Below are positions 18,761 to 22,519 of a stretch of 39,012 nt of DNA, piece after piece. The DNA comes from Phycisphaerales bacterium (lineage in GTDB: Bacteria > Planctomycetota > Phycisphaerae > Phycisphaerales > SM1A02): NCBI GenBank assembly GCA_009692045.1, contig SIAA01000018.1, positions 1-39,012 of the forward strand, given 5' to 3'. Below the pieces are notes generated by a model. The model did no database searches, was not told the origin of the DNA, and worked only from the letters and a program-made list of their open reading frames with translations. Numbering within the stretch: position 1 is the stretch's first letter; every line of letters starts with the position of its first letter. Made by a program: the position numbers and the translations under genes.

Positions 18761-20515
18761 ATGCCTATCCAGTTACTGAGCTCTCAGGTCATCGATCAGA
18801 TCGCCGCCGGCGAGGTGGTGGAGCGACCGGCGAGTGCCGTGAAGGAGCTGGTTGAGAATGCGATTGATGCCGGCGCCACTCGCCTCGTCATTGAGATTGA
18901 AGAGGGGGGGCGGGACCTGCTGCGCATTCAGGATGATGGTCACGGCATTCCCCACGAGGAGTTGGCACTGGCGGTGACTGCCCATGCCACCAGCAAAATC
19001 GGCGGGATCGCTGACTTGGAACGGGTTTCCACTCTGGGATTCCGGGGCGAGGCGCTGGCGGCCATTGGCTCGGTGTCCCGGCTCTCTCTCACATCCAAAC
19101 CCGCGTCCCAGTCGAGTGCGGGCCGCATTGAGGTCAACTCCGGTTTGATAGCGGGCCCGATGCCCGCGGCGGGGAAGTGTGGAACCTGCGTTGAGGTTCG
19201 AAACCTATTCGGAAGTATTCCCGCACGGCGAAAGTTCCTCAAAAGCGCGGGTGCCGAAGCAGCGCGCATCGTGGAAGTGGTGCTTGCCGCTGCCCTGCCT
19301 CGCCCAGAGGTTTCATTCGAGGTGACGAGTGGGGGACGCACGCTGCTGCGGCTGAATCGCGCTGCGGGACTGAGGGCGCGAACGATTGACGCTCTCGGAG
19401 ATGAGCTTGATCCCCACCTGCTCACCGTCTCGGGCGTGGCGGTGGGTGATAGTGGCGAGTCGGTCTCCGTTGATGGGTTTGTGGGCACACCGGACACGGC
19501 GCGAGGGTCTTCCAAGTGGCTTCGCATCTATATGAATGGCCGCCCGATCATCGATCGATCGCTGCAGCACGCGGTGCGCGAGGGATTCCGAGGGTTGATC
19601 GAGCCCGGGGCGTTTCCCGTGGCAGTTCTCTTTGTTGCCTGTCCACCCTCGCTGGTGGATGTGAATGTTCATCCCGCTAAGACCGAAGTGAGATTTCGGC
19701 AGCCATCATTGATGCATCGGCTGGTTCATGCGGCCGTGCGCGATGCGTTGGCGGTGAGTGACATAGTGCCTGTGCTTTCACCGCGGCAGATGACCTGGGG
19801 TGGAGTGAATGCGACCGCGGCGCCGCTCCCGTTCGCGGCTTCCGTGTTGGCAAACTCGCCCGCAGAGGCCGCGGCATCAACAACTGACTCTCTATCACTC
19901 TCTGCCATTGCCGCCGGACGCCTGCTGCAAGTCAATCGAACTTGGCTGGTGTTTGAAGAGGCGGGTGCTCTGGTGGTGGTAGATCAGCACGCACTTCACG
20001 AGCGTGTTCTATTCGAGGAGTTTCTCGCTCGAGTTCAACAGGGGGATCTGGAGTCTCAGCCGCTACTGGTTCCGCAGATCTTTGCCGCAGATGCTGCCGC
20101 CATCGAACGAGTCGAGGCCATGGGGGCACTGCTTCTTCGGCTGGGAATCGACCTGCGCCAAGCCAGCCCGCGCTCTCTGGCGCTGCATGCCGTACCGACT
20201 CTGCTGGCATCGCGCGGCGTTGATGCTCTCGACTTTGCCAAGTCGCTGGTCGAGAATGAATCGTCCGCGGGCGCGCGCCTCGGTGACTCAGCATCAGCCA
20301 CTGGCAGCGAGGTCGAAGCTGCCCTCGCTGAAGTTCTGGACATGATGGCGTGCAAGGCCGCTGTCAAAGCCGGGGACACGCTGACTGCGAGCGAGGCCTC
20401 GGCACTTCTGGCACGCCGCGTGGATGTTGAGCGATCGAGTCGCTGCCCCCACGGTCGACCAACTTCAATGCGCATCCCTCTGGTCGAGCTCGAGCGTCGC
20501 TTTGGCCGCCGCTAG
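18761..20515 (+). CDS. mutL: DNA mismatch repair protein MutL with endonuclease motif
   Basis: A 584-aa mismatch repair ATPase. The GHKL ATPase motifs are ENAIDAGA (32-39), DDGHGI (58-63) and TLGFRGEAL (91-99). The C-terminal dimerisation domain carries DQHALHERVLFE (408-419), which fits the DQHA(X)2E(X)4E endonuclease motif, together with ACKAAVKAGD and CPHGRPT. This is therefore the nicking type found in bacteria without MutH. The ATG at 18761 gives the family-typical MPIQLLSSQVIDQIAAGEVV. A longer frame would overlap nadE. mutS is not adjacent. The TAG stop forms the second half of a CTAG shared with the convergent pseudopilin gene. Confidence 0.96.
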   Translation: MPIQLLSSQVIDQIAAGEVVERPASAVKELVENAIDAGATRLVIEIEEGGRDLLRIQDDGHGIPHEELALAVTAHATSKIGGIADLERVSTLGFRGEALAAIGSVSRLSLTSKPASQSSAGRIEVNSGLIAGPMPAAGKCGTCVEVRNLFGSIPARRKFLKSAGAEAARIVEVVLAAALPRPEVSFEVTSGGRTLLRLNRAAGLRARTIDALGDELDPHLLTVSGVAVGDSGESVSVDGFVGTPDTARGSSKWLRIYMNGRPIIDRSLQHAVREGFRGLIEPGAFPVAVLFVACPPSLVDVNVHPAKTEVRFRQPSLMHRLVHAAVRDALAVSDIVPVLSPRQMTWGGVNATAAPLPFAASVLANSPAEAAASTTDSLSLSAIAAGRLLQVNRTWLVFEEAGALVVVDQHALHERVLFEEFLARVQQGDLESQPLLVPQIFAADAAAIERVEAMGALLLRLGIDLRQASPRSLALHAVPTLLASRGVDALDFAKSLVENESSAGARLGDSASATGSEVEAALAEVLDMMACKAAVKAGDTLTASEASALLARRVDVERSSRCPHGRPTSMRIPLVELERRFGRR

Positions 20516-21279
20516 CGCGGGTCGTAAGCGCTGTCGTCTTCACTAAGAAATCCGTTGCGGGGGAAACCCATCACTTCATGGAGCAGATAGGGATTCGCTT
20601 GAGTTCCGGCGCAGCACTGGCGGCTGCACGAGACATGCCCGTCCAAGTACGCGACTTCGCTGCCGCCTTGATGGCGCAGCGCCTGTCCCCCGGCATAGAC
20701 AGCTCCCAGATCACCCTCGACAGATGCGCTGGGCGCGCGCATGAACTTGTTGGATCCGTTTCTCCAACCTCCATCGCCAAAGAGAGCTGTTTCAGAGCTT
20801 CGGCGCTGACTTGTAAGCGGAACACCGCGGCGAATCATCTCCCAGCCGCACTGGTTGGGCGAGGTGGGAAGCGGTGCTTCGGCGCCAATGAAAGAGGTGT
20901 TGTAGTTGTAGCCGGTGTGGAGATCCTGACCGGAGTTGGGGCCGCCAACGAAGCACGGACACTGCTGCACTCGACCGGGGTCCTTGCAGAATCCCCATAG
21001 GGCGCCGGGGCGAACACCGCCAACTCCCGAGGAATAATCCCAAGCGTTCACGACCACGCCAGATGCAGTCCACTCATAGACCAGTGCGGGCGGCATGCAC
21101 TCTTTGAATGTCGCGCTATAGGCGAAGGCGGCCACGGCCATCTGCCTGAGATTTGTCTGGCAGTTGAGACCGAGTGCAGTCTGGCGCGCGCCGCTCATTC
21201 CCGGCAGCAACAATCCCAGCATCAATCCGATCGTTGCCAGCACGATCAACAACTCGACAAGTGTGAAGGCGTGTTTCAC
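20512..21279 (-). CDS. Type II secretion/pseudopilin-like protein with H-X9-DG motif, second gene of the B12-riboswitch operon
   Basis: A 255-aa protein with a type IV prepilin N-terminus: short basic leader, then AFTLVELLIVLATIGLMLGLLLPG, in which FTLVEL carries the conserved Glu5 and is followed by the hydrophobic helix. The rest is the planctomycete-type globular domain (LNCQTNLRQMAVAAFAYS near 38-55, many Cys and Gly) ending in HQGGSEVAYLDG, an exact H-X9-DG motif. GTG at 21279 is taken as the start because it overlaps the TGA of the upstream gene as GTGA and GGAG lies 5 nt upstream. A TTG 3 codons earlier is possible. It is expected to be processed by a prepilin peptidase and inserted in the inner membrane or a pseudopilus. 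Control by the riboswitch at 22288-22472 is inferred from this coupling. Confidence 0.8.
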   Translation of the reverse strand: MKHAFTLVELLIVLATIGLMLGLLLPGMSGARQTALGLNCQTNLRQMAVAAFAYSATFKECMPPALVYEWTASGVVVNAWDYSSGVGGVRPGALWGFCKDPGRVQQCPCFVGGPNSGQDLHTGYNYNTSFIGAEAPLPTSPNQCGWEMIRRGVPLTSQRRSSETALFGDGGWRNGSNKFMRAPSASVEGDLGAVYAGGQALRHQGGSEVAYLDGHVSCSRQCCAGTQANPYLLHEVMGFPRNGFLSEDDSAYDPR

Positions 21280-22217
21280 GGACTCCAATCTGCCAGGAGG
21301 AGAGAGAGATCGCCACCGTTCACGCTGCCGTCGCCGTCGATGTCAGCAGCGACACCGCTGGCACCCCACGCCGACAACAGCAGAGCCAAATCCGCGCCTG
21401 AAACCACGCCATCATGATCAAGGTCGGTCGCTGGTGCGGCGGAAGCGACGATCGCAACTGCGTCGACCTCGATGTGAGCCCAGGCATCAGGCGCGGCGGA
21501 GATTCGCACGGCCGTCACCTCGGCAAGACCGTGAGCGCCGATGTCAATGCCGACACCGCCGCCGCTGCCGTTGTAAGCAGAGATGAGCGATTCATAGGGA
21601 GCGCCGTAAAAGTCGCTCCAGTGGAGCGCTGGGTTGACGGGAGCACGAAAGTCAGTTGGATTGAGCCCGCCCGTGAGTGCGTAGGGGCTCGTGTCCTCGA
21701 ACGCCAGCGTGGGCCAGCCACCATCGGCGGCCTGCGCGGGAACGGTGACCCAAGTGGTGCCATCGGCAGAGAGTTCGATCACTCCACCATCAAACGCCAG
21801 AGCCGCGGCGACTCCACCGGGGTACTGACTGTCGGTGAACATGGAGTTACCGAAGATGATCAGATCGATTCCGAACGGATGATCGGGATCGTCACGGATT
21901 ACTTCATCGAAGCCCAGCATGAGGTGCCCGCCCGCACCGATGGAAAGGATCTCGCTGGGCATGAACGCGGGATTGAAGGGCGTGACAACACTGGGGTAGA
22001 CGATGCCGCCAGTAAACCGAGTTGGTTCGCCGAGTGCAGAAGTTGGATTGGTGTAGCCGCTGGCTGGGGAAGTTCCGCCTGAATAGGAAATCACGGCGCT
22101 GGCATATCCTTGGGCCTCGGCGTAGGGGGGTTGCAGGGTGAGCGCACTTGCAAGTGTCAGAGCAGCAGTCCAGAATCCCAAATCAATAGATCGAAGCAGC
22201 GCGGTGATGAGGCGCAT
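21276..22217 (-). CDS. Secreted protein with dockerin-like tail, first gene behind a cobalamin riboswitch
   Basis: A 313-aa exported protein. A signal peptide (about 1-35, cleavage near AEA-QG) is followed by a beta-rich domain (about 37-255) with SYSGGTSPASGYTNPTSALG, SIGAGGHLMLGFDE, FGIDLIIFGNSMF and GGGVGIDIGAHGLAEV, then a dockerin-like tail (265-313) with two calcium loops, DLDHDGVVSGAD and DIDGDGSVNGGD. I recall similar domains annotated only as cell surface proteins, which I cannot verify here. The ATG at 22217 is preferred because GGTGA lies 5 nt upstream and longer versions would translate the riboswitch. The next gene overlaps by GTGA. Location behind a B12 riboswitch suggests expression when cobalamin is scarce, hence a possible role in B12 capture (inference). 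Confidence 0.8.
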   Translation of the reverse strand: MRLITALLRSIDLGFWTAALTLASALTLQPPYAEAQGYASAVISYSGGTSPASGYTNPTSALGEPTRFTGGIVYPSVVTPFNPAFMPSEILSIGAGGHLMLGFDEVIRDDPDHPFGIDLIIFGNSMFTDSQYPGGVAAALAFDGGVIELSADGTTWVTVPAQAADGGWPTLAFEDTSPYALTGGLNPTDFRAPVNPALHWSDFYGAPYESLISAYNGSGGGVGIDIGAHGLAEVTAVRISAAPDAWAHIEVDAVAIVASAAPATDLDHDGVVSGADLALLLSAWGASGVAADIDGDGSVNGGDLSLLLADWSP

Positions 22218-22222
22218 GAAGT

Positions 22223-22233
22223 CACCAGAGGTG
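22223..22233 (-). promoter_or_regulatory. Hairpin that could mask the ribosome-binding site (riboswitch output)
   Basis: On the minus strand CACC-TCT-GGTG pairs the Shine-Dalgarno-like GGTG, 5 nt before the ATG at 22217, with an upstream CACC. Such a sequestering stem is expected of a translational riboswitch. No intrinsic terminator with a T-run is visible between the aptamer and the start codon. Confidence 0.4.
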
Positions 22234-22287
22234 TCGGAAGTTGGGCGCAAGCGAGCCCTAGTCGCGAGGGGGCTGGCGCAATCCGCT

Positions 22288-22472
22288 GGCAGGTCTTCCG
22301 GCTTCGGGCATTCTGTCGGACCAGCCTTCCCAGCGCCGAGGCGCCAGTGGCTATCAGCAGTCCGGCAGTCGGTCGAGCCTATAACAGCCTCGACCATACC
22401 CGTCACGGCGGCGCGTCCGCAGCGGCTTTTCACCGCACTTCCCTCAACCGGCGAGTTCCCGCAGGAACCGGC
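22288..22472 (-). ncRNA. Cobalamin (B12) riboswitch
   Basis: Read on the minus strand, all conserved blocks of the cobalamin aptamer appear in order: GAGGGAAGTGCGGTGAAAAG with matching GCCGC (P3 region), CCGCCGTGACGG, a variable hairpin (GGTCGAGGC ... GGCTCGACC), GCCACTGG with the GCGCC/GGCGC stem, TGGGAAGG, and the B12-box end AAGCCGGAAGACCTGCC. The 5' boundary is set by GCCGGTTCC, which can close the outer stem. It lies 70 nt upstream of the dockerin-tailed gene on the same strand. Cobalamin binding is expected to repress that gene and its coupled neighbour. Coordinates at the 5' edge are approximate. Confidence 0.92.
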
Positions 22473-22519
22473 AGACTGAGTCCAGAGCACAAGCCCTAGA
22501 GCAACCAGCGACGGTGGAG

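Follow-up and report, generated by a model that had tools for sequence, protein, structure and literature searches.

What does a cobalamin riboswitch control when the two genes behind it encode a secreted protein with a dockerin-like tail and a prepilin-like protein? The question is raised by a minus-strand locus of the window, that is, the whole stretch of 39,012 nucleotides from a Phycisphaerales bacterium that was analyzed here. The initial annotation had proposed a surface device for the capture or delivery of cobalamin or other corrinoids, found in planctomycetes and their relatives and built from proteins that belong to no known B12 class. The core of this proposal stands, since the first protein is homologous to BtuH and a riboswitch precedes most such loci, but the part about the missing B12 class does not. 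Very probably, the locus is a B12-starvation operon for the capture of cobamide outside the cell, with its B12 binding and its regulation predicted from sequence and structural models.

The control region has the following features:

22271..22487, minus strand: cobalamin riboswitch aptamer, RF00174 (cmscan, 75.2 bits, model positions 1-189, complete)
22288..22304, minus strand (22304-22288): B12 box AAGCCGGAAGACCTGCC (direct reading, aligned to RF00174)
22254..22274, minus strand: hairpin AGCCC-CCUCGCGACUA-GGGCU, just 3' of the aptamer (predicted fold)
22223..22233, minus strand: small hairpin CACC-UCU-GGUG over the Shine-Dalgarno-like GGUGA, 5' of the start (direct reading and predicted fold)

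The riboswitch had been placed at 22288-22472 from its conserved blocks. The match to the full Rfam model is slightly wider than this, with E = 6e-17 and a score well above the gathering score of 31.5 bits, and the B12 box quoted earlier was located within it. A covariance search of the whole genome (2.17 Mb) showed this to be the sole copy above the cut-off; contig C60 has one additional, weak match of 26.5 bits. The hairpin just 3' of the aptamer is probably the expression platform, similar to P13. Because the folding of the platform alone is not above that of shuffled sequences (z = -0.87), the argument for this hairpin rests on recurrence and not on energy: hairpins of the type CCC-(U)CGCG-GGG are found 3' of the aptamer in many relatives. 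The hairpin in the start region may also have a role in control. Judging from its sequence, the riboswitch would repress the operon in a ligand-dependent manner.

The two genes and their parts are as follows:

21276..22217, minus strand: btuH-like gene, 313 aa, with signal peptide, BtuH-type B12-binding domain, and dockerin tail
21441..22106, minus strand: BtuH-type domain, about residues 38-258 (profile match 6e-81, the protein's own sequence being within the profile)
21846..21848, minus strand: codon of Asn124 in the FGN motif, aligned with Asn399 of BtuH2 (profile alignment)
21297..21428, minus strand: dockerin-like tail, residues 264-307 (PF00404, Dockerin_1, 25.8 bits, cut-off 22.9)
20512..21279, minus strand: prepilin-like gene of the DUF1559/H-X9-DG type, GTG start at 21279

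The btuH-like gene begins with the ATG at 22217, 53 bases 3' of the aptamer, and stops at 21276. The N-terminus of its product resembles a signal peptide, and, together with the Dockerin_1 match, this agrees with the earlier description of a signal-peptide protein with a dockerin-like tail. The GC-type dockerin model NF041540 gives 25 bits on the same tail, below its cut-off of 29. What, then, is the main domain? Searches with Pfam and NCBIfam detected nothing but the dockerin above cut-off in this protein, and the homology to BtuH emerged only with a family profile. When a profile of 11 homologous domains was compared with the PDB, the top two matches, both spanning almost the entire profile, were chain B of 8BLW (8.5e-8) and 7BIZ (0.038, which is weak by itself). 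The match to 8BLW sits in the C-terminal BtuH domain of BtuG1 from Bacteroides thetaiotaomicron. An AlphaFold2 model of the protein (pLDDT 81.7) gave 8BLW as the sole Foldseek match below 0.001. When the model was aligned with 993 chains by VIA-align, 7BIZ (Z 12.6, 138 residues) and 8BLW (Z 12.4, 152 residues) took ranks 1 and 2, followed by the discoidin-like folds common to carbohydrate-binding modules, with Z of 11.0 or less (up to about 10.5 for the carbohydrate-binding modules). Structure prediction, which had been suggested as a check, thus brings the model closest to the B12-binding BtuH domains.

BtuH2 binds B12 with picomolar affinity and is required for growth at low B12, and its Asn399 contacts the phosphate of B12 (PMC8941943). 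By the chain numbering, Asn399 corresponds to the Asn in the GN motif; the offset used, 100, is consistent with Gln333, Tyr510, and Trp511 as well. Of 98 homologous domains, 99% have Asn at the position equivalent to Asn124. Among the other contacts of BtuH2, Gln333 is kept in only a few relatives, and no reliable alignment was obtained for the contacts made by Tyr, Trp, and His. Because the profile, the fold, and one key residue agree, we assign the main domain of the 21276-22217 product, by sequence and model, to the BtuH family of surface B12-binding proteins. The statement that this protein falls outside the known B12 classes is therefore refuted. By the same homology and model, the protein presumably binds cobamides. 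In addition, 7 of the 11 members show a distant similarity (best 2.6e-4, below the curated cut-off) to the NCBIfam family of the Leptospira lipoprotein LIC_13355. This published host-binding lipoprotein may share the BtuH-like domain.

The GTG start of the prepilin gene overlaps the TGA stop of the btuH-like gene as GTGA, and direct reading (start 21279, stop 21276) confirms the coupling of the two genes. In the product of the prepilin-like gene, DUF1559 is above its cut-off (28.6 bits against 23.3), but the N-terminal methylation and H-X9-DG motifs fall slightly below their curated cut-offs (N_methyl, 20.4 against 21.2; HX9DG, 16.4 against 19).

Is this arrangement a peculiarity of one genome? 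A single-sequence search found homologues of the btuH-like protein in 15 others of 294 genomes of the phylum; many genomes in the sample are draft MAGs. A riboswitch above the gathering score is present 5' of the btuH-like gene in 82 of 86 testable loci, comprising the locus studied here, 14 of 15 relatives, 48 of 50 loci from a wider scan, and 19 of 20 further loci. This rules out a one-off association and bears out the expectation that homologues would be preceded by riboswitches. In the 15th relative (G111), the locus is cut at a contig end, and the sole riboswitch of the genome is found at the facing end of another contig. At locus L101 of genome G309, a riboswitch match of 56.4 bits lies 189 bases upstream, on contig C201. 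Two btuH-like/prepilin loci, L089 and L091, gave no cobalamin riboswitch even at E values up to 1. When the aptamer core was searched for with a rough pattern, 41 of 80 loci had an upstream match, and the downstream and antisense controls had none. Of the 88 loci with downstream room, 85 have a prepilin of the same group directly 3' of the btuH-like gene, as judged by profiles built here. Thus, the linkage of riboswitch, secreted BtuH-type protein, and prepilin is conserved across Planctomycetota. As had been guessed, most of the loci belong to Planctomycetota; a Kiritimatiellia bin is also represented. No second cobalamin riboswitch above the cut-off occurs in 14 of 16 genomes.

The operon has variants in which a secreted propeller-like protein, a PQQ-type propeller, or a PEP-CTERM protein is encoded between the riboswitch and the prepilin. 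Secreted propeller-like genes lie between the riboswitch and the btuH-like gene at L031:1121-2539, L033:10110-11177, and L139-L161. At the sequence level, the identification of these propellers as BtuG found no support, since they gave no PDB match to it. A small gene of the BFD-type [2Fe-2S] kind is often located just 3' of the prepilin (L019-L023, L082, and others). A Kiritimatiellia bin (L129) has two consecutive BtuH-like reading frames and then the prepilin, all behind a riboswitch. On a contig labelled Deltaproteobacteria (L128:1-2166), a btuB-like TonB-receptor gene and the btuH-like gene are transcribed divergently, and either side has its own cobalamin riboswitch. The planctomycete-type operon is also found on contigs titled Bacteroidia, Alphaproteobacteria, Caulobacteraceae, and Leptolyngbya (L082, L155, L095, and L115), which are probably mislabelled or misbinned.

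Outside the window, the weak riboswitch on C60 precedes a gene for a PEP-CTERM-like protein (L034:3047-3661, minus strand), whose PEP-CTERM motif scores below the cut-off. The same family stands behind all 10 of the extra riboswitches found outside the operon in 10 relatives (L167-L176). Seven of these riboswitches (L167-L173) score between 23.6 and 27 bits, below the gathering score. Since each of them precedes the same family, they are probably real, and the Rfam threshold probably misses planctomycete copies. Apart from the sorting motif, Pfam gave no match for the family, and none to DUF4430/transcobalamin in particular; a sequence search of the PDB was also negative. Nevertheless, the predicted model of the L034:3047-3661 protein (pLDDT 82.7) matches the beta domains of intrinsic factor (Z 13.4), haptocorrin (13.1), and transcobalamin (about 12), as well as the bacterial protein 3U7Z (11.6). 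The top 15 structures are 14 cobalamin-binding animal proteins and 3U7Z, and the next unrelated fold has a Z of 6.8. The model therefore predicts a fold like the beta domain of transcobalamin and intrinsic factor for this co-regulated protein. Transcobalamin-like domains were described as widespread in planctomycetes by Burroughs and others in 2007, with riboswitches unmentioned (PMC1796856). In two genomes, G209 and G261, the second cobalamin riboswitch (L036 and L037) precedes an anaerobic ribonucleotide reductase gene. Ribonucleotide reductase is a classical target of cobalamin riboswitches. In a Kiritimatiellia bin, an extra riboswitch (L177) precedes a gene for a TonB-dependent receptor. 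One more extra riboswitch lies at L178.

What use would the host have for these proteins? CbiC, a marker of corrin synthesis, was found in none of the 16 genomes, and B12-binding enzyme domains and a FecCD-type ABC permease were found in all 16. In the genome of the window, the FecCD permease is part of a binding protein-permease-ATPase cluster on contig C20, which is a candidate B12 transporter. In the proposed starvation operon, the aptamer would fold when adenosylcobalamin is ample, and the downstream hairpins, the one with the CGCG-containing loop and the one in the start region, would block translation. When B12 is scarce, both the btuH-like protein and the prepilin would be made. The btuH-like protein would be exported, held at the surface by its dockerin tail (PEP-CTERM in some relatives), and bind cobamide in a pocket to which the conserved FGN site contributes. 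The cobamide would then be passed inward to the FecCD-type ABC transporter. The second riboswitch-controlled protein, with its transcobalamin-beta-like predicted fold, probably does the same job.

How would the cobamide cross the outer membrane? Two versions of this step are contained within the starvation operon as proposed. In the first, to which we give somewhat less than an even chance, the BtuH-like protein delivers to a conventional B12 transporter that has diverged strongly and is TonB-dependent or of the porin type, and the prepilin only aids surface assembly or display. This would resemble Bacteroides, in which BtuH acts together with BtuB/BtuG (PMC8941943, PMC10404256), and the TonB-receptor gene behind a riboswitch in a Kiritimatiellia bin and the btuB-like gene divergent from btuH-like in L128 are consistent with it. 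However, the genome of the window, a 95% complete MAG, gave no match to plug, barrel, or TonB (PF07715, PF00593, and, for the TonB C-terminus, PF03544) in searches that were positive in the E. coli, Caulobacter, and Bacteroides controls. Furthermore, no TonB receptor is found behind any riboswitch in the 16 genomes, because all of those riboswitches go to the operon, the transcobalamin-like protein, or ribonucleotide reductase.

In the second version, which is unlikely, import is independent of TonB: the prepilin would form a short pseudopilus and, together with a secretin, take the place of BtuB by carrying either the cobamide or the BtuH-like protein loaded with it through the outer membrane. 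The nearly constant position of the prepilin 3' of the btuH-like gene and its translational coupling in the genome studied here argue for this version. The TonB-receptor plug and barrel are missing from the same 10 of 16 genomes, including that of the window, which also lacks the TonB C-terminus, and one single-contig genome, while secretins are present in all 16. On the other hand, DUF1559/H-X9-DG prepilin-like proteins are plentiful in planctomycetes, the operon contains no dedicated ATPase or secretin gene, and 6 of the 16 genomes have TonB receptors. It is similarly doubtful that, in planctomycetes without TonB or its receptors, the BtuH-like and transcobalamin-like binders made in starvation would hand cobamide to a prepilin/secretin machine.

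Least probable of all is that the domain has drifted to another ligand, for example, a polysaccharide, and that its B12 control mirrors a B12-dependent switch of lifestyle: the fold is discoidin/CBM32-like, most of the BtuH2 contacts are not visibly kept, and dockerin tails are frequent on polysaccharide-active proteins, but the nearest structures are two B12-binding domains, the phosphate-binding Asn is almost invariant, and the co-regulated partner has a transcobalamin-beta-like predicted fold.

With the operon taken as a cobamide-capture system of B12 starvation, a homologue of BtuH would be the main B12-regulated gene of another phylum, in hosts without the corrin-synthesis marker and, in many cases, without a TonB system. 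The passage of a 1.35 kDa vitamin through the outer membrane of such bacteria becomes directly testable. In addition, one group of planctomycete H-X9-DG prepilins gains a functional context, and cobalamin riboswitches are tied to a predicted bacterial transcobalamin-like fold.

How does this system compare with those already known? The riboswitch and the BtuH domain are of known kinds. BtuH has been described in gut Bacteroidetes, mainly adjoining btuB. The domain studied here is homologous to those of BtuH2 (BT_1956, 7BIZ) and the H-domain of BtuG1 (BT_1490, 8BLW) of B. thetaiotaomicron, and the phosphate-contacting Asn is conserved. Like the BtuH of Bacteroides, the protein is secreted and under a cobalamin riboswitch, and in relatives it sometimes has PKD domains (L032) or an adjoining propeller gene. 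In contrast to it, the protein has a dockerin tail, or PEP-CTERM in relatives, in place of a lipoprotein anchor; the operon contains a prepilin and no btuB, is mostly found in Planctomycetota, and leaves most other BtuH2 contacts unmatched. The secreted propeller-like genes of relatives resemble the BtuG beta-propeller in position, although the operon in the window has none. The co-regulated PEP-CTERM-like protein shares its predicted fold with the beta domain of transcobalamin and intrinsic factor (SLBB superfamily, DUF4430-like); unlike the animal proteins, it has no alpha-barrel domain. DUF4465/BtuJ proteins are widespread secreted B12 binders, with one tested member from the planctomycete Mucisphaera calidilacus (PMC13398666), but the operon proteins tested gave no DUF4465 match. 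In the non-subscription literature searched, no paper links cobalamin riboswitches with prepilins. Relative to that literature, the system is new in its phylum, in its use of dockerin or PEP-CTERM as anchor, in the absence of btuB, and in the constant prepilin partner; also new is, according to the structural models, the link between a cobalamin riboswitch and a transcobalamin-like fold in planctomycetes.
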